NCBI RefSeq assembly: GCF_030553305.1
Contig: NZ_JARRAH010000001.1
Coordinates: 372,001-436,000, forward strand
From: Halomarina ordinaria
GTDB taxonomy: Archaea; Halobacteriota; Halobacteria; Halobacteriales; Haloarculaceae
Direction of reading: 5' to 3'
DNA length: 64,000 bases
Shown in pieces: positions 6,220-37,450 of this stretch. The position numbers and the translations under genes are program-made. The number at the start of each line of letters is the position of its first letter. Position 1 is the first letter of the stretch. Below the pieces are notes generated by a model. The model saw nothing but the letters and a program-made list of their open reading frames with translations. It had not been told where the DNA came from and ran no database searches.

Positions 6220-7455
6220 ATGGACCCCCCGTCTCTCGACCGGTCGAAGGTGGCGTGGGTGGTGGTCGGCGTCGCCCTCGCCGGTGCGTTCGCGCTCGTC
6301 GTCTACTCGTTCGTGGGGACGTTCATCTTCGGACTCTTCGTCTACTACGCGACGCGGCCCGTCTACGAGCGCCTGAAGCGTCGCATCTACCCGCCCAGTC
6401 TGGCCGCCCTCGTCTCGCTGTTCGTCCTCGCGCTCCCGGCGCTCTCGCTGTTCGCCTACGTCGTCGCCGTCGGTATCCAGGAGTACCAGCGCCTCTCCGT
6501 CCGCGAGGGCATCGACCTCGGCCCGCTCGAACCGCTCATCAGGCCGTACATCGACGTCTCCTACATCGTCGAGGACCCCCAGACGCTGCTCAACGACCCG
6601 ACGCTCCGCGACTTCGCCCAGCAGGCGTTCAACGACGCCCTCGGCTACCTCGGGTTCATCGGGAACGCCCTCCTCCACGTGTTCGTCGTCCTCGCGCTCG
6701 CGTTCTACCTCCTGCGCGACGGCGGACGCTTCTCGCGGTGGTTCTACAGGCGCTTCGACGACCGACGGGGCATCCTCAGGGACTACTGCCGGGCGGTCGA
6801 CACGGACCTCGCGAGCATCTTCTTCGGCAACATCCTCAACGCCGTCTTCACCGGTATCATCGGGGCCGTCTCCTACACGCTGTTGAACGAGGTCGTCCCC
6901 GGTCAACCGGTCCCCTACCCCACCCTGCTCGGCCTGCTGACCGGCGCCGCCAGCCTCATCCCCGTCGTCGGGATGAAACTGGTCTACTTCCCGCTCACCG
7001 GGTACCTGCTCGTCCAGCAGTACACGACCGGCGGGCCGCTCTGGTTCGTCGTGCTGTTCTTCGCCGTCTCGTTCGTCGTCGTCGACTCAGTTCCCGACTT
7101 CGTGCTCCGGCCGTACGTCTCCGGGCGGAACCTCCACATCGGCATGGTGATGTTCGCCTACATCTTCGGCCCGCTGCTGTTCGGCTGGTACGGTATCTTC
7201 CTCGGACCGGTGTTGCTCGTCTTCATCTACCACTTCGCGACGTTGGTGCTCCCGGAACTGCTCTCGGAGGGGTCGGTGCGCCCCTACAGCGTCGACCCCG
7301 GCGTCCTCCCGCGGTCGTTCGACCTGCCGGAGGGGTCGCCCGTCGAGACGGCGACGGTGGGCGACGACCCGGACCCCGACCGCGCCACCGACCCGTCGGG
7401 GACGCCCGGCGACGCGCCCCACCCGACCTCGAACCGCCCCTCCGACGGCGACTGA
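6220..7455 (+). CDS. AI-2E family transporter (PerM/TqsA-like permease), 411 aa
   Basis: A membrane protein with an N-terminal pair of helices (VAWVVVGVALAGAFALVVYS, then FIFGLFVYYATRPVYERLKRR), a hydrophilic loop, and a C-terminal membrane bundle. The family blocks LLGLLTGAASLIPVVGM and DFVLRPYVSGRNLHIGMVMF are clear. PerM-like proteins have been linked to export of small molecules or to Na+(Li+)/H+ antiport. In archaea the substrate is unknown, and the name should not be read as quorum sensing. The C-terminal 60 residues are a disordered Asp/Pro-rich tail. Start MDPPSLDRSK follows a T-rich box at 6190-6195. Confidence 0.85.
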   Translation: MDPPSLDRSKVAWVVVGVALAGAFALVVYSFVGTFIFGLFVYYATRPVYERLKRRIYPPSLAALVSLFVLALPALSLFAYVVAVGIQEYQRLSVREGIDLGPLEPLIRPYIDVSYIVEDPQTLLNDPTLRDFAQQAFNDALGYLGFIGNALLHVFVVLALAFYLLRDGGRFSRWFYRRFDDRRGILRDYCRAVDTDLASIFFGNILNAVFTGIIGAVSYTLLNEVVPGQPVPYPTLLGLLTGAASLIPVVGMKLVYFPLTGYLLVQQYTTGGPLWFVVLFFAVSFVVVDSVPDFVLRPYVSGRNLHIGMVMFAYIFGPLLFGWYGIFLGPVLLVFIYHFATLVLPELLSEGSVRPYSVDPGVLPRSFDLPEGSPVETATVGDDPDPDRATDPSGTPGDAPHPTSNRPSDGD

Positions 7456-13132: not shown

Positions 13133-14070
13133 TACGGGAGGTCGACGGCCACTCCTTCCTGCTCGCTGGCGGCCTTCACCGTGTTGTAGAGCAACATCGC
13201 GCGCGTCATCGGCCCGACGCCACCGGGGACGGGGGTGATGGCGCTGGCTTTCTCTTTGGCGCTCTCGAAGTCGACGTCGCCGACGAGTTCGTAGCCCTTT
13301 CCCGTGTCGGCATCGTCGGACGGAGTCCGACTGCCCGCCGAGCTTCGCTCGGCGACGTCGACGCGGTTGACGCCCACGTCGATGACCGTCACTCCCTCCG
13401 AGAGCATACTTCCATCGAGCATCTCGGGGACGCCGGCGGCCGCGACGACGATGTCCGCTTGCCGGGTCTTCGCCGCCAAGTCCTTCGTCCGGGAGTGACA
13501 GACCGTCACCGTCGCGTTCCCTCCCGGCTGTTTCTGGAGGAGGAGGTTGGCCATGGGTTTGCCGACGATGTCGGAGCGCCCGACGACGACGGCGTCTTTC
13601 CCCTCGGGGTCGACGTCGGATGCTTCGAGGAGTTTCTGGACGCCGTGTGGAGTACAGGGTTTGTAGCGGGCGTTTCCGGCCACTAATCGCCCGACGTTCT
13701 CGGGGTGGAAGCCGTCGACGTCCTTCGCGGGGTCGATGGCGCGCAACACCCGGCGCGTCTCGACGTGCTCCGGGACCGGCATCTGCACCAGGATTCCGTG
13801 CACCGACGGGTCACCGTTCAGCTCGTCGATGGTGTCGTAGAGTTCGGACGCGTCGGCCTCGGGGTCGAGTTCGACGTGGGTTCCGTCGATGCCGACCTCC
13901 TCGCAGTCGCGCTGTTTCATCGAGACGTACGTCTGGCTCGCGGGGTCGTCGCTCATCAGGACGGTGGCGAGACCGGGCGTGTGTCCCGCGTCAGCGAGCG
14001 TCCCGATGGCGTCCGCGAGGCCGTCTCGAACGTCCGCGGCGACGGCGTTCCCGTCGATCAACTCGGTCAT
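13132..14070 (-). CDS. folD: Methylenetetrahydrofolate dehydrogenase/cyclohydrolase FolD, 312 aa
   Basis: Bifunctional one-carbon enzyme interconverting 5,10-methylene-, methenyl- and 10-formyl-tetrahydrofolate. Visible: the catalytic YVSMKQRDCEEVGI (conserved Tyr and Lys), GILVQMPVPEHV, PAKDVDGFHPENVGRL, the nucleotide loop VVGRSDIVGKPMANLL, and the end TPVPGGVGPMTRAMLLYNT. An acidic insert of about 20 residues (SSAGSRTPSDDADTGKG) lies between the DVGVNRV strand and the final part, which bacterial FolD lacks. Start MTELIDG at 14070 is preferred over an ATG ten codons upstream. GlyA, about 1.6 kb away on the same strand, feeds the same pathway. Confidence 0.95.
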   Translation of the reverse strand: MTELIDGNAVAADVRDGLADAIGTLADAGHTPGLATVLMSDDPASQTYVSMKQRDCEEVGIDGTHVELDPEADASELYDTIDELNGDPSVHGILVQMPVPEHVETRRVLRAIDPAKDVDGFHPENVGRLVAGNARYKPCTPHGVQKLLEASDVDPEGKDAVVVGRSDIVGKPMANLLLQKQPGGNATVTVCHSRTKDLAAKTRQADIVVAAAGVPEMLDGSMLSEGVTVIDVGVNRVDVAERSSAGSRTPSDDADTGKGYELVGDVDFESAKEKASAITPVPGGVGPMTRAMLLYNTVKAASEQEGVAVDLP

Positions 14071-17049: not shown

Positions 17050-18726
17050 ATGAGGGAGTGCACCGGTGACATGTCGGAATCCGTCGGTCGGAACCTCGCC
17101 GACGTGCCGATACTCGACCTCCCGGATACGCCCGAGGGCGTCGCGACCGCCCTCACGAACCTCTCCGCGCTCGTCCGGGAGCCGACCGCCTCGCGCTCCC
17201 ACCCGGACCTCAGGCCCCACCCGCCGCTCCTCCGGGTCGACCCCGAGGCCGACACCACCGTTCCCCCCACGCTCGCCGCCGACCGCCCCGAGACGGGCGT
17301 CGACTTCCGCCTCCCGGCCGACCGCCAGCACCTGTTCGTCGCCGCGCCCCTCGCGTACTACCTCGGCGCGACGGTCACGCTGGCGGACGACGTGCCCGCC
17401 CTGGAGACCTGCGGCGTCACCCACGAGTTCTCGCCGCTGCCGGGGTTCCAGACGGAGGTCGCGGCCCTCCTCCGGCACGTCTTCTACCTCGACTGCCTCG
17501 TGCGCGAGCGGCCGGACGAGGTGGCGGCGTGCGGGCGCGAGGCGCTCGCCGACCACGGCCTCTGCCCGGCGGCGCTGGCCGACGCGGCACCGGCGGCGCG
17601 CCTCGAGGCGTACCTCACCGTGCCGACCGAGGCGCTCGCGCCACACTGGCCGGAGTGGCACCTCGCGACCTACGCCGACCCCGGCCCGGAGACGCTGGCC
17701 TGTCTCCCCTACCTGCTCGACGCGATGAGCCTCGTCTACCTCCCCGAGTCATCCGACATCGACGCCCAGGGGCTCCTCCGACGCTCGCTGGACGACTTCT
17801 TCAGGGGTCCCGGACAGGGACCGGTCGCCTCCGTCGACGTCGTCGACCCGGAGTTACAGGCCGGCGAACTCCACGCGTGGCTCGCCGACGGCGTCCCCGT
17901 CTCGGCGTTCACCCCCTCGGCGGCGGCGTTCGAGAACCGCTTCCGGAACGGGTCGCCCGACGACGTGCTCGACGTGACGGTCGTCCTCAACGACGACGCG
18001 ATGGAGGGGGAGCACGAGGCGGTCGCGCGCACCTACCGCGAGCGGTCGGCGGGCCTGCCCGTCGACGTGACCGTCCGCGAGGGGCTCTCGGTCGCGGAAC
18101 TGGCGGACCTGCTGGAGACCGACCACGACTTCCTCCACTACATCGGTCACTGCGAGGTCGGCGGGCTCCAGTGCTCGGACGGCGGGCTCGACTGCGAGAG
18201 CCTCGCGCGCTCGGGCGTCCGGACGTTCTTCCTCAACGCCTGCGGGTCGTACCACCAGGGGCGGGCGCTCGTCGAGGGCGGGAGCGTCGCGGGCGCCGTC
18301 ACGCTCCGGACGGTGCTCAACCGGCCGGCGGCCACCGTCGGGACGACGTTCGCCCGCCTGCTGATGTGCGGGTTCGGCATCGAGCGCGCGATGCAACTCG
18401 CCCGGCGACAGATCATGATGAGCACCGACTACGCCGTCGTCGGCGACGGGACGTACGCGCTGACGGGCGCGGAACCCGCCATCGTCCACCTCCACGAGGT
18501 CGAGGACGGCTACGACCTCACCTACACCGTCCCCGCGGACGGCCGGGTGGGCGACGGCTTCCACGCGCCGTTCGAGACCTGTCGCAGACTGCGGGGGACC
18601 ACGGCCGACCGCAGACTCGGGCGCGACGCGGTCGTCGACTTCGTCACGACCCACCAACTCCCGGTCGTTTTCGATGGCAATCTCTACTGGCCTGACACGT
18701 TCCTCGAGGAGGTGGATATCCCCTGA
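17050..18726 (+). CDS. CHAT-domain (caspase-like) protein, 558 aa
   Basis: A large acidic protein whose C-terminal 200 residues form a CHAT peptidase-like domain. Catalytic-type residues are present: His367 in FLHYIGHCEVGG and Cys398 in TFFLNACGSYHQG. These are followed by GGSVAGAVTLRTVLNRPAATVGTTFARLLMCG and a helix IERAMQLARRQIMM. The N-terminal 330 residues hold LPADRQHLFVAAPLAYYLGATV and a helical, possibly regulatory part with no named domain. CHAT proteases act in separase-like cleavage and in bacterial immunity. Here the substrate is unknown. Alternative start ATG at 17071 (MSESVGRN). The TbsP-type and YcaO genes follow co-oriented. Confidence 0.75.
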   Translation: MRECTGDMSESVGRNLADVPILDLPDTPEGVATALTNLSALVREPTASRSHPDLRPHPPLLRVDPEADTTVPPTLAADRPETGVDFRLPADRQHLFVAAPLAYYLGATVTLADDVPALETCGVTHEFSPLPGFQTEVAALLRHVFYLDCLVRERPDEVAACGREALADHGLCPAALADAAPAARLEAYLTVPTEALAPHWPEWHLATYADPGPETLACLPYLLDAMSLVYLPESSDIDAQGLLRRSLDDFFRGPGQGPVASVDVVDPELQAGELHAWLADGVPVSAFTPSAAAFENRFRNGSPDDVLDVTVVLNDDAMEGEHEAVARTYRERSAGLPVDVTVREGLSVAELADLLETDHDFLHYIGHCEVGGLQCSDGGLDCESLARSGVRTFFLNACGSYHQGRALVEGGSVAGAVTLRTVLNRPAATVGTTFARLLMCGFGIERAMQLARRQIMMSTDYAVVGDGTYALTGAEPAIVHLHEVEDGYDLTYTVPADGRVGDGFHAPFETCRRLRGTTADRRLGRDAVVDFVTTHQLPVVFDGNLYWPDTFLEEVDIP

Positions 18727-18810: not shown

Positions 18811-19623
18811 ATGACTGAAAACATACTCGAATCGGATATCGACGCGCTGCTCGCGACGGCGTTCGCCGACAGTCAGGGCACCACGTACGTCGTCAACCCC
18901 TCGGCGTCGACGTTCGAGACGGTTGTCGACGCGCTCGCGGCTGCCGACGACGTGTCGGTCCGCCTGCTCGGCGAGGAACGGATGCTGAAGGACGTGCTCG
19001 ACGACTTCCTCGTCGCCAGCACGGCCGCCGACCTCATCGACGCCGGCCGTCTCGAACTGCGTTCGTTCGACGTCCCGTCGAACACGCTGCTCGTCTCCGA
19101 CGACGCCGTCATGGCCGTCGTGAGCGCCGGTGACCGGGTCGCCGGCCTCGTCACCGACGACGAGGACTTCGTCGGCAACGCCCGCGACGAGTACGACGCC
19201 GTCTGGGAGGCCGCGACGGACTTCAAGCTCCGCACGCCGCCCATCACGCGCGTCCGCGAGACGCTCGGGAGCGAAATCGGCACCGACGCGGCCGGCGACT
19301 TCGACGGCGTGCTCGCCTCGCTCGAGACCGCCCGCGGCGACGGCGACGGCCTCGACGAGGTGACCATCAGCCTGCTCGTCGCGGCGAAGAACGAGGAACT
19401 GCTGTACGACATCTCGAAGTGGGGCGAGGACGTCGGCATCGCCTCGAAGGCGACGTTCTCGCGGACGAAGACCCGTCTCGAGGAACTCGGCCTCATCGAC
19501 ACCGAGAAGGTGCCCATCGACGTCGGCCGCCCGCGCCTGCGCCTCGTCCTCGGCGACGACCGCCTGCGCCAGGCCGACACGGACGAACTCGCCAACGTCG
19601 CCCAGAGCCTCCTGGCCTCGTAG
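18811..19623 (+). CDS. tbsP: TbsP-type transcriptional regulator (DUF5821), 270 aa
   Basis: Haloarchaeal regulator: an N-terminal alpha/beta domain (TYVVNPSASTFETVVDALAAADDVSVRLLGEERML, later VSAGDRVAGLVTDDEDFV) and a C-terminal winged helix (ISLLVAAKNEELLYDISKWGEDVGIASKATFSRTKTRLEELGLIDTEKVP). The layout matches TbsP, reported to act with TrmB on glycolytic/gluconeogenic genes in haloarchaea. Orthology is by resemblance, so the symbol is tentative. The upstream 80 bases are A/T-rich with TTAAATACC (18780-18788) as TATA box and a possible operator ACCATATAGAATC just before the start. Gene order with CHAT and YcaO may or may not be functional. Confidence 0.75.
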   Translation: MTENILESDIDALLATAFADSQGTTYVVNPSASTFETVVDALAAADDVSVRLLGEERMLKDVLDDFLVASTAADLIDAGRLELRSFDVPSNTLLVSDDAVMAVVSAGDRVAGLVTDDEDFVGNARDEYDAVWEAATDFKLRTPPITRVRETLGSEIGTDAAGDFDGVLASLETARGDGDGLDEVTISLLVAAKNEELLYDISKWGEDVGIASKATFSRTKTRLEELGLIDTEKVPIDVGRPRLRLVLGDDRLRQADTDELANVAQSLLAS

Positions 19624-19695
19624 ACGGCGAGACCGCGACGACCGCGAGCGCGCACAACCGCCCGACTTTTCCGTCCTCCACCGCCTCTCACAGGC

Positions 19696-21402
19696 ATGAC
19701 TGTCGAACTCGTCGGCGACGGCCCCGCCCTCGCTGCCCTCCGGGAGACGCTGGCCGACGCGTCGGTCCCCGTGGCGACGGCGTCCGCCGACGCCCTCGCG
19801 GACGCGGACGCGACGGACGCCGACCTCACCGTCGTCGTCGGGCCGGTCGGAGCGCAGGTCTTCGCGACCGCGAACGAGGTCCGTCGGCGCTGGCTCGCCG
19901 TCGAACTGGGCGGCGTCGGCGGCCGCGCGCTCCCCGACGTCGACGCGAGCGTCTCGGGGTTCGGCCCGTCGACCGGCTGTTACGACTGCCTGCGGGGTCG
20001 GGTCGCCGCCAGCGCGGAGCGTGTCGAGGACGGTGCGGGCCCGGACGCCCCGACCGCGCGGCTGGCGGGGACGCTCGCGGCCCGGTCGGCCGTCGGCCTG
20101 CTCGACGGCGACGACGCGCCCCTGGGGCGCGTCCTCGAGGTCCCCCACGCGGAGCGTGAGTTCCTGGCGCTGCCGCACTGCTCGTGCGCGCCCGAGCGCG
20201 ACTGGGCGCTCCGACGCGAGGGGGAGTCGCGCTCGCTCGACGACGCCCTCGCGCGGGCGGAGCGGGCGCTCGACGGGCGCGTCGGGCCGGTCGCGGAGGT
20301 GGGGGAGGCGGAGTCGTTCCCCCTGCCGTACTACCTCGCCTCGCTCGCCGACACGGCGGGGTTCAGCGACGTGCGAGCGCCGGTGCACGCCGCCGGCGTC
20401 GACCCCGACTGGGACGCCGCGATGATGAAGGCCCTCGGCGAGGCGCTCGAACGCTACGGTGCCGCCGTCTATCGCCGAGGAGACCTGCCCGCCGCCCCCG
20501 CCGCCACGCTCCCCGGGGCGGTGTCCCTCTCGCGCTTCGTCACTCCCGAGGGGATTGTCCCGAGGGACGACGAGACGACGACGTGGGTGCCGGGGGAGGA
20601 CCTCCACTCGGGGGCGAGCGTCGCGCTCCCGGCCGAACGGGTCTTCTTCCCCTACGAGACGGAGGCGCCGACCATCACGACGGGACTGGGCCTCGGCAAC
20701 GGCGGGGCCGGGGCGCTCGTCGCGGGGCTGACCGAGGTCCTCGAACGGGACGCGTCGATGCTCGCGTGGTACTCGACGTACGACCCCCTCGGCCTCGCTA
20801 TCGACGACGAGGGCTTCGAGACGCTCGTCCGCCGCGCACGCGCCGAGGGACTGTCGGTGACGCCGACGCTGCTCACCCAGGACGTGGACGTCCCCGTCGT
20901 CGCCTGTGCGGTCCACCGCGAGGGAGAGTGGCCTCGTTTCGCCCTCGGGACGGCCTGCGCGCTCGACCCCGCCCGGGCGGCCCGGTCGGCGTGCTGCGAG
21001 GCGATACAGAACTGGCTCGAACTGCGCGGGATGGGCCGGGGCGACGCCGCGAACGCGGGGGGACGCATCGGCCACTTCGCATCGCGCCCCGACTCCGTCG
21101 AGGGGTTCGTCGCCCCGGAGGCGACCGTCCCCGCGTCCGGACTCGCCGTCGAGGCGTCGACCGACGCGGCCGCGCTCTCCGCCCTCCTCGACCGGGTGGC
21201 CGACGCGGGACTCGACGCCTACGCCGCGCGCCTCACGCCCCGCGACGTGGACGCCCTCGGGTTCGAGGTCGTGCGCGTGCTCCTCCCCGAGGCACAACCG
21301 CTGTTCGTGGACGAGTCGTACTTCGGCGCGCGGGCGGAGTCGGTCCCCGCCTCGCTCGGGTTCGAGGCACGCCTGCGGCGCGAACACCACCCGTTTCCGT
21401 GA
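19696..21402 (+). CDS. Fused ThiF-like leader-binding domain and YcaO cyclodehydratase-like protein, 568 aa
   Basis: YcaO enzymes activate peptide amides with ATP, making azoline rings in RiPPs or thioamides/amidines on proteins. The N-terminal 180 residues resemble the degenerate ThiF/E1-like partner: LTVVVGPVGAQVFATANEVRRRWLAVELGG, with zinc-type pairs CYDC (about residue 94) and CSC (about 158). The YcaO domain has ALGEALERYGAAVYRRGD, TTGLGLGNGGAGALVAGLTEVLERDA and ARSACCEAIQNWLELRG, the Glu-rich helices that bind ATP/Mg2+. The C-terminus lacks the PxPxP end of some azoline cyclodehydratases. No precursor peptide, dehydrogenase or transporter is visible beside it, so a protein target (thioamide or amidine) is equally possible. 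Confidence 0.85.
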   Translation: MTVELVGDGPALAALRETLADASVPVATASADALADADATDADLTVVVGPVGAQVFATANEVRRRWLAVELGGVGGRALPDVDASVSGFGPSTGCYDCLRGRVAASAERVEDGAGPDAPTARLAGTLAARSAVGLLDGDDAPLGRVLEVPHAEREFLALPHCSCAPERDWALRREGESRSLDDALARAERALDGRVGPVAEVGEAESFPLPYYLASLADTAGFSDVRAPVHAAGVDPDWDAAMMKALGEALERYGAAVYRRGDLPAAPAATLPGAVSLSRFVTPEGIVPRDDETTTWVPGEDLHSGASVALPAERVFFPYETEAPTITTGLGLGNGGAGALVAGLTEVLERDASMLAWYSTYDPLGLAIDDEGFETLVRRARAEGLSVTPTLLTQDVDVPVVACAVHREGEWPRFALGTACALDPARAARSACCEAIQNWLELRGMGRGDAANAGGRIGHFASRPDSVEGFVAPEATVPASGLAVEASTDAAALSALLDRVADAGLDAYAARLTPRDVDALGFEVVRVLLPEAQPLFVDESYFGARAESVPASLGFEARLRREHHPFP

Positions 21403-35174: not shown

Positions 35175-37450
35175 GCCACGACTTCATCCGGGCGGCCGAC
35201 CGCGCGCTGACCGAGACCTACGAGGAACCGATGGGCCTCGCTGAGTACGTCGAGCGGGTCTTCGAGGAGCCTCGCATCGCGTCGCACGCGAGCAAGTACC
35301 TGCTCGAGGCCATCGAGGCCGCCGGCACCCGACAGGTCGTCGAGGAGGGCGAGGAGAACGAGCGCTATCGCTTCTTCGACGACCCGCACAACGACGGCGA
35401 ACACGCCATCCTCGGCAACACGGAGGTGCTCAACGAGTTCGTCGACGACCTGCGCTCCATCGCCGCCCGGCGCGGGAAGGAAGAGAAGATAATCTGGCTC
35501 GAGGGCCCCACCGCGACGGGGAAGTCCGAGCTGAAGCGCTGCCTCATCAACGGCCTCCGGGAGTACTCGAAGACCGACGAGGGGCGGCGCTACACCGTCG
35601 AGTGGAACGTCTCCGGCGCCGACACCGACGGCTCGGGGTTCACCTACGGCGAGTCCCCGGTGAGCAACGAGGAGGAGTGGTACGTGAGCCCGGTGCAGTC
35701 GCACCCCCTCACGGTCTTCCCCCGCGAGATACGCGAGGACCTCCTCGAACAGCTCAACGAGCGCCTCGACGACCACCTGGAGGTCCAGGTGGAGGCGCGC
35801 CTCGACCCGTTCTGCCGGGAGGCGTACGACTACCTGGAGGAGCGCTACCGCCGGCAGGGCCGCGAGGACCTGTTCTCGGCGGTGACGGACCCCAAACACC
35901 TCCGGGTGAAGAACTTCGTCGCCGACGTGGGCACCGGCATCGGCGTCCTCCACAGCGAGGACGACGGCACGCCGAAGGAACGCCTCGTGGGGTCGTGGAT
36001 GCACGGGATGCTCCAGGCGCTCGACTCGCGCGGGCGCAAGAACCCCCAGGCGTTCAGCTACGACGGCGTCCTCTCGCAGGGCAACGGCCTGCTGACGCTC
36101 GTCGAGGACGCCGCCCAGCACGCCGACCTGCTCCAGAAACTGCTGAACGTCCCCGACGAGGGGAGCGTGAAACTGGACAAGGGCATCGGGATGGACATCG
36201 ACACGCAGTTGCTCATCATCTCGAACCCCGACCTGGAGGCGCAGCTGAACCAGCACGCCGAACGCCACGGACAGGACCCACTGAAGGCGCTGAAGCGTCG
36301 CCTCGACAAACACGAGTTCCGCTACCTGACGAACCTCTCGCTGGAGGCCGAACTCCTGCGCCGGGAGCTCACCAACGAGACGGCCGTCTGGACCGACACC
36401 TCCTACGAGGAACTGGCGGCGAAGATCCGCGAACCCGTCACCATCGACGTGCGTGACAACCGCCGGCAGGTCCACACCAAGGAACTCGCGCCGCACGCCG
36501 TCGAGGCGGCGGCGCTGTACGACGTCGTCACCCGCCTCGACACCGAGGACCTGCCGCCGGGGCTGGACCTGGTGGACAAGGCGCTGCTGTTCGACGCCGG
36601 CTTCATTCAGGACGGCGACGAGCGCCGCGAGAAGGACGACTTCGAGTTCGGGCAGAACGCCCGCGACGGCCAGCACGGCATCCCCGTCACCTACACGCGG
36701 GACGCCATCGCGGACCTGCTCCACGAGCGCAGTGACCGCCACCACCCGGACCTGCCCGTCGAGCACGTCATCATGCCCCGCGACGTGCTGAACGCGATGG
36801 CCGACGGCTTCGTCGACGCGCCGGTGTTCTCGAACGCCGAGCACACCGAGTTCGAGAACCGCCTCGTGCAGGTGAAGAACCGCGTCTTCCGCCAGCAACA
36901 GCGCGACGTGCTCTCGGCCATCATGCGCGAGAAGCGCGTCGACCAGGCCACCGTCGAGGAGTACGTCGAGCACGTCTACGCCTGGAGCGAGGGCGAGACC
37001 ATCACGAACGCCCGCGGCGAGGAGGTGTCCCCGGAGCCGCTGAAGATGAAGGTCTTCGAGATAGAGCACCTGGGCCGGTTCGACGAGTCGCACTACGACG
37101 GGAGCGATCCCGAGGAACCGGTCCGGGCGTTCCGGACCGAAAAGGTGATGACCGCGCTCAACCGACACGCGTGGCGCAACCGCGACGACGAGTTCCGCCT
37201 ACAGGACGTCGACCTCCGCGACATCCCCGTCATCGAGACGGTCCTGGGGAGCTACGACTGGGACGACGTCCGCCGGGTGTTCGAGGACTTCGACCCCCGC
37301 CAGTGGGACGACCCGCCGAGCGGGACGGAGACGGAGTCGGTGAAGGAAGCGACCGTCGAGAACATGCAGGACCTCTTCGGCTACAGCGCCGCGAGCGCGG
37401 AGCTGACCAGCCGACACGTCATGAGCCAGGTGAGCTACCGATGGGACTGA
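35171..37450 (+). CDS. PrkA family serine protein kinase, second paralogue, 759 aa
   Basis: A diverged second PrkA. It keeps [19 protein letters not shown] and [23 protein letters not shown], Walker [15 protein letters not shown] (about residues 109-122), the PrkA block [22 protein letters not shown] and the sensor-like [16 protein letters not shown]. The C-terminal part ([42 protein letters not shown]) is longer than in the first paralogue. Bacteria usually have one prkA (yeaG); two in tandem is the haloarchaeal pattern, so they may form a hetero-complex. It overlaps the first by four bases and YeaH by ten, all translationally coupled. Confidence 0.9.

Follow-up and report, generated by a model that had tools for sequence, protein, structure and literature searches.

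The window analysed here is a 64,000-nucleotide stretch of the Halomarina ordinaria genome (contig NZ_JARRAH010000001.1, positions 372,001 to 436,000). It contains an intact ycaO gene (P0001) that begins with ATG, encodes 568 amino acids and lies exactly where the preliminary description had placed it, directly downstream of tbsP. The features to which the following text refers are, in window coordinates:

18811..19623, plus strand: tbsP, a transcription regulator gene directly upstream of ycaO (NF047393, 394 bits)
19624..19695, plus strand: tbsP-ycaO intergenic stretch, with a T run at 19667-19670, 25 nt before the ATG
19696..21402, plus strand: ycaO
19696..20205, plus strand: E1/ThiF-like N-terminal domain, about residues 1-170 (AlphaFold model compared with MoeB/ThiF)
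19978..19989, plus strand: N-terminal cysteine pair (CxxC, residues 95-98) of a putative four-cysteine zinc site (alignment)
20179..20187, plus strand: second cysteine pair (CxC, residues 162-164), which would complete that zinc site (alignment)
20224..21399, plus strand: YcaO domain, about residues 177-568 (Pfam and model)
20440..20454, plus strand: first ATP/Mg motif, E249-x-x-E252-R253 (alignment with LynD/TruD and MJ1094)
20734..20751, plus strand: second ATP/Mg motif, E347-x-x-E350-R351-D352 (alignment)
20998..21009, plus strand: third motif, E435-x-x-Q438 (alignment)
21388..21399, plus strand: C-terminal HPFP, the PxP-type tail of azoline-forming YcaOs (orthologue alignment)

The protein is, as had been proposed, a YcaO fused to a ThiF-like domain. 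Its match to PF02624 in Pfam (E = 4.4e-44, residues 238-533) scores 151.6 bits against a curated cut-off of 25.7, which places it in the YcaO superfamily. The top NCBIfam model is TIGR03604, the SagD-type thiazole/oxazole maturase, at 215.2 bits, narrowly short of its curated cut-off of 219.25; all 50 of the 50 relatives scanned match this model at E ≤ 0.001. The McrA-thioamidation model TIGR03266 yields 71.9 bits, with a cut-off of 365. In an AlphaFold2 model generated with 50 orthologues as input (mean pLDDT 91.9, pTM 0.91) and compared with structures in the PDB, residues 1-166 resemble MoeB and ThiF (Z about 14), and the whole chain, residues 1-568, aligns with residues 112-775 of LynD (Z 37.7). 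The preliminary description was right in noting a resemblance to TOMM cyclodehydratases. The best single-domain structural match of the YcaO part is the methanogen protein MJ1094 (Z 39.1). The E1-like domain varies more between orthologues (mean pairwise identity 49%) than does the YcaO domain (63%).

LynD and TruD (4v1v, 4bs9) share with the window protein the E1-like and YcaO architecture over its residues 1-568 as well as the ATP motifs. They differ from it in two respects: no precursor gene lies near the window gene, and the first ~110 residues of LynD and TruD, where the leader-binding RRE of the fused C domain lies (described for LynD in PMC12455567), have no counterpart, the alignment with the model beginning only at LynD residue 112 and TruD residue 111. 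The RRE is therefore missing. What the preliminary description called a leader-binding-like domain is thus present in its E1/ThiF-like part and lacks the segment that binds the leader.

The catalytic apparatus appears to be complete. E249, E252, R253, E347, E350, R351, D352, E435 and Q438 are invariant in 81/81 aligned orthologues, and in a profile alignment the ATP/Mg motifs of the family fall in register with those of LynD, TruD, MusD and MJ1094; the loss of the ATP-binding glutamates, which had been named as an observation that would refute the proposal, has not occurred. All but one of 80 orthologues end in HP[YF]P, a tail that E. coli YcaO, the TfuA-linked YcaO of Azospirillum and the methanogen YcaOs of the thioamidation clade all lack. 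The residues G248, D517, P535, H565, P566 and P568, invariant within the family, are shared by the TOMM-cluster enzymes but seldom seen in the methanogen YcaOs. According to a published survey, the PxP motif takes part in catalysis and typifies the YcaOs that form azolines (PMC7136475). It is no proof of azoline chemistry, however, because daptide YcaOs with a PxPxP ending yield imidazolines (PMC12338566).

Conservation of these residues also bears on whether the YcaO fold might have been retained in an ATP-dependent peptidase or in a scaffold devoid of catalysis. MusD, the YcaO chain in a published structure of an ATP-dependent peptidase (7u58), aligns with model residues 1-568 (Z 33.7). E. 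coli YcaO was itself formerly thought to be a scaffold (cited in PMC9953058), but it has proved to be an enzyme (PMC13063428), and invariant ATP/Mg motifs together with a preserved C-terminal tail are not what a scaffold needs. A peptidase or scaffold is, on this evidence, very improbable.

A second set of conserved residues lies in the E1-like domain. The four cysteines C95xxC98...C162xC164, which probably bind a structural zinc, are complete in 69/81 orthologues. The remaining 12 have lost all four together, and these are the 12 of 12 Haloferax orthologues (L034, L035, L046, L051, L057, L060, L063, L066, L067, L072, L074 and L092); the four-cysteine site is also missing from one orthologue outside the 81-row alignment (L018, of genome G095). 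The window protein thus differs from the haloazolisin-type YcaOs of Haloferax in retaining this site, and the published ycaO knockout, which is discussed below, was therefore made in an atypical genus.

A YcaO is present in 241/242 Halobacteria genomes, and orthologues in nearly all genomes of the class are far past what chance would give. The class boundary is also the limit of full-length relatives: within the phylum, the next matches drop from E = 1e-154 to 1e-37, and the matches in the phylum beyond the class are mostly YcaOs of about 400 amino acids aligned over the YcaO domain only. An apparent truncation of ycaO in one genome (G187) is accounted for by the gene running into a contig end. 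The sole genome of the 242 with no YcaO match is G218, which is 92% complete; its corresponding locus (L183) retains tbsP, followed by other genes. If the loss of ycaO from G218 is real, that genome could help to identify proteins that disappeared along with the gene. A plasmid collection yielded one clear orthologue (Natrinema thermotolerans, where no annotated gene underlies the match) along with two bacterial YcaOs that matched weakly. No archaeal essential-gene screen with YcaO was found in the literature searched.

In a tree of 47 YcaO domains the universal haloarchaeal family forms one clade (support 100/100). The clade sits within the TOMM-type half (91/78), its nearest neighbours being some haloarchaeal TOMM-cluster enzymes (82/88), in a sampling in which the characterised TOMM D proteins placed were the annotated plasmid ones only. 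The methanogen YcaOs, together with the TfuA-linked YcaO, fall elsewhere, as does E. coli YcaO. The window family thus groups with TOMM cyclodehydratases and apart from the methanogen thioamidation clade. A non-enzymatic placement, the other observation that had been held to count against the preliminary description, was not found either, in that the tree does not join the family to E. coli YcaO. The TOMM grouping is moderately supported, and the long branch of E. coli YcaO calls for caution in reading its separation from the window family, that is, the failure of the tree to group the two as enzymes of the uL16 type.

This family is already known and published. The name haloazolisin dates from 2015 and was prompted by short peptides called precursors; at that time the leader-binding region was found to be missing and another leader-binding protein was suspected (Cox, PMC4603692). 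In 2023 a YcaO was reported in all haloarchaeal genomes, with no cluster definable around it; deletion of ycaO from Haloferax mediterranei left cells viable, with antimicrobial activity kept and only FTIR differences to be seen (Costa, PMC9953058). The YcaO of this lineage had thus been described before, which the preliminary description, in calling its role undescribed as far as it could tell, had missed. The window protein belongs to the published group: it is a short CD fusion, found almost universally, and has the neighbours reported there (an ORF of unknown function directly upstream, SHMT and folD). Its setting is the same (PMC4603692, PMC9953058): the ORF upstream whose function was then unknown is tbsP, SHMT and folD lie nearby, and the fused C domain is short and divergent.

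The neighbourhood shows in what sense ycaO is an orphan. The term holds with regard to RiPP partners, but not in general, since tbsP is a conserved neighbour: it directly precedes ycaO on the same strand in 28/41 genera and is the sole recurrent adjacent same-strand gene. In a deep lineage of the same order (L187, of the 0.9 Mb genome G490, family f37) tbsP adjoins a YcaO that is only 32% identical to that of the window, which dates the gene pair to an early point in the lineage. glyA, folD, a DUF63 membrane protein gene and an inositol-phosphatase-like gene also recur near ycaO; its neighbours are housekeeping genes. The tbsP-ycaO spacer has a conserved element of its own, a T5 run being found in 37/43 orthologous spacers vs 1.2 expected in shuffles; the T5-T6 run ends at a median of 25 nt ahead of the ycaO start codon. 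The run is either a TATA-like promoter element, from which a leaderless ycaO transcript would start, or a terminator of tbsP. Farther upstream, on the other side of tbsP, a 558-amino acid protein (17050-18726, plus strand) has a weak CHAT (caspase-like) match of 24.4 bits against a cut-off of 24, and homologues of it occur within 10 kb upstream of ycaO in 15/41 genera.

Beside ycaO in the window there is no precursor-like peptide, no dehydrogenase, no TfuA and no exporter, in agreement with what had been noted from the sequence. Across 25 haloarchaeal genomes searched, that of the window included, TfuA was found in none (a Methanosarcina acetivorans control was positive); SagB is absent from the window's genome and from 18 of the 25. 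A TIGR03882 match in the window's genome, considered as a possible C protein, is a 276-amino acid E1 protein of the MoeB/UbaA type, and apart from UbaA/MoeB-type E1 proteins the search matched no C-protein-like gene there. A filter for short peptides with Cys/Ser/Thr/Gly-rich cores has as its sole match in the window an arginine-rich frame (36453-36791); applied to 1.63 Mb around 80 orthologues it gave 23 matches, mostly of the shadow-ORF type. The same filter gives convincing precursors beside the true TOMM clusters of haloarchaea, which are built around a second, patchily distributed YcaO:

L144, 4861-9209: TOMM-type cluster
L143, 1417-9715: TOMM-type cluster
L147, 7355-11012: TOMM-type cluster
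L188, L189 and L192 (also L142, L197 and L198): TOMM-type clusters
L144, 9093-9209, minus strand: leader-bearing peptide of a TOMM-type cluster
L189, 13401-13529, plus strand: leader-bearing peptide of a TOMM-type cluster

The second YcaO (found in Halomicrobium urmianum, in Haloplanus and at loci L142-L147 and L188-L198) belongs to the same class of archaea and the same TOMM-type half of the tree as the window protein. It differs in being patchy and, in the clusters that were opened, in often standing beside genes for a SagB-like protein, an E1-like C protein and ABC proteins and beside short Cys/Ser/Thr-rich, precursor-like peptides. Since precursors and partners are found at these loci, haloarchaeal TOMM clusters do exist, and the window locus is unlike them. 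Five of the cluster peptides align on a leader, M[KDE][FLV][DE][ILV][TS][DE][DE]S, for which no description was found in the literature; the leader profile adds a weak further candidate beside the cluster of genome G075 (L203, E 0.004). At L142, two paralogous peptides (6327-6470 and 6585-6734, both on the minus strand), which end in GGSTSCSGCSGGGTTICDGTGE and GGCGSCTGCSGGGSTICDGTGE, lie beside a SagB-like gene and are likely to be TOMM precursors with a different type of leader. In a Haloterrigena, one precursor located apart from ycaO had been mentioned (Cox 2015, PMC4603692).

These searches bear on the explanation implied by the name haloazolisin, in which the protein would act as cyclodehydratase in the making of a genuine TOMM natural product, with precursor and leader-binding partner encoded elsewhere in the genome. 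Cyclodehydratases that lack an RRE of their own and depend on a separate protein are known. Such a partner is what was suspected in 2015 (PMC4603692), and TOMM cyclodehydratases are the closest relatives in sequence and fold. However, a near-universal, single-copy gene is unlike a natural-product cluster, SagB is absent from this genome and most relatives, and no candidate C protein remains beyond the UbaA/MoeB-type E1 proteins. The DES-type leader profile gives only chance-level matches in the window's genome (best E 0.16), as against 1e-12 to 1e-18 in three precursor-holding control genomes, in a search that is not exhaustive, the profile having missed one genome of its own training set; a query of the window's genome with a lone peptide was empty and is uninformative. 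In several Haloferax species folD overlaps the precursors that had been proposed (PMC9953058), and the corresponding folD-antisense ORF of the window (13736-13840), matched to them by position and not by published sequence, was rejected as a precursor: at 35 other folD-aligned loci Cys, Trp and stop swap at the same columns, and the frame is open at 24 loci and initiated by a start codon at 14. It therefore behaves as, and decays like, a shadow of folD codons rather than a gene, and this peptide is to be dropped as a presumed precursor. Finally, the Haloferax mediterranei deletion did not end antimicrobial activity (PMC9953058). A remote natural product is accordingly an unlikely assignment, if a serious one.

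If the substrate is instead a conserved protein, precedents point to thioamidation. Only two protein-level YcaO substrates are known, McrA and uL16, and both are thioamidated (PMC13063428). The methanogen YcaOs that act on McrA (MJ1094, 6pe3/6peu; MkYcaO, 6ci7) resemble the window protein in being archaeal and in their ATP motifs, and they set a precedent for a YcaO acting on a housekeeping protein, but they have no E1-like domain and no HPxP tail and form a separate clade. E. coli YcaO, for years an orphan and in 2026 shown to thioamidate the ribosomal protein uL16 (PMC13063428), is like that of the window a stand-alone protein without a nearby precursor gene; it differs in its tetratricopeptide-repeat region (PMC13063428), in lacking the HPxP tail and in its distant position in the tree. 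Near-universality, isolation from RiPP genes and a shared catalytic core would all suit the installation of a thioamide or amidine by the haloarchaeal enzyme. Against this stand its separation in the tree from both the methanogen/TfuA clade and E. coli YcaO, its HPxP tail and the absence of TfuA from 25/25 genomes, although E. coli YcaO modifies uL16 in vitro with sulphide. Thioamide or amidine formation is, in consequence, decidedly unlikely.

The reading that we tentatively favour, at slightly less than even confidence, is that ycaO, a single-copy, housekeeping-like gene of essentially all Halobacteria, encodes a catalytically active YcaO of the TOMM/azoline type that uses ATP to activate amides. 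Its catalytic aspect draws on the motifs that are invariant in 81/81 orthologues and align with LynD, TruD and MJ1094; its azoline aspect draws on the fold match to LynD and TruD, on TIGR03604 (215 bits vs 72 for TIGR03266), on the TOMM clade and on the HP[YF]P tail; its housekeeping aspect draws on the 241/242 genomes, the housekeeping neighbours, the absence of TfuA and SagB and the precedent of E. coli YcaO acting on a ribosomal protein. The missed TIGR03604 cut-off, the imidazolines of PxPxP enzymes, the viable deletion, the YcaO-less G218 and the moderate support of the TOMM grouping count against it. By analogy with LynD and TruD, the YcaO domain would bind ATP/Mg through its three conserved motifs, and a backbone amide would be attacked by a nucleophile, most likely the side chain of a neighbouring Cys, Ser or Thr; the hemiorthoamide oxygen would then be phosphorylated, and loss of phosphate would leave an azoline ring (-18 Da). 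For the E1-like domain, a structural role in docking and dimerisation is probable. With no RRE to bind a leader, the enzyme would probably recognise the folded surface of its substrate or rely on a separate partner.

The suggestion in the preliminary description that a remote peptide or a housekeeping protein is modified is a plausible one: the substrate would most likely be encoded at a distance from ycaO and be a peptide or protein that all haloarchaea share. A more specific version, that an azoline-type heterocycle is placed in a conserved, non-RiPP housekeeping protein whose folded surface is recognised without a leader peptide, is speculative and less likely than not. To our knowledge, no azoline is known in an ordinary cellular protein. 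Were this version true, the modification would characterise a whole archaeal class. McrA and uL16, the YcaO protein substrates known so far, belong to central enzymes or machines, and a near-universal YcaO without RiPP partners suggests that a third substrate exists at the protein level, probably modified by a different chemistry.
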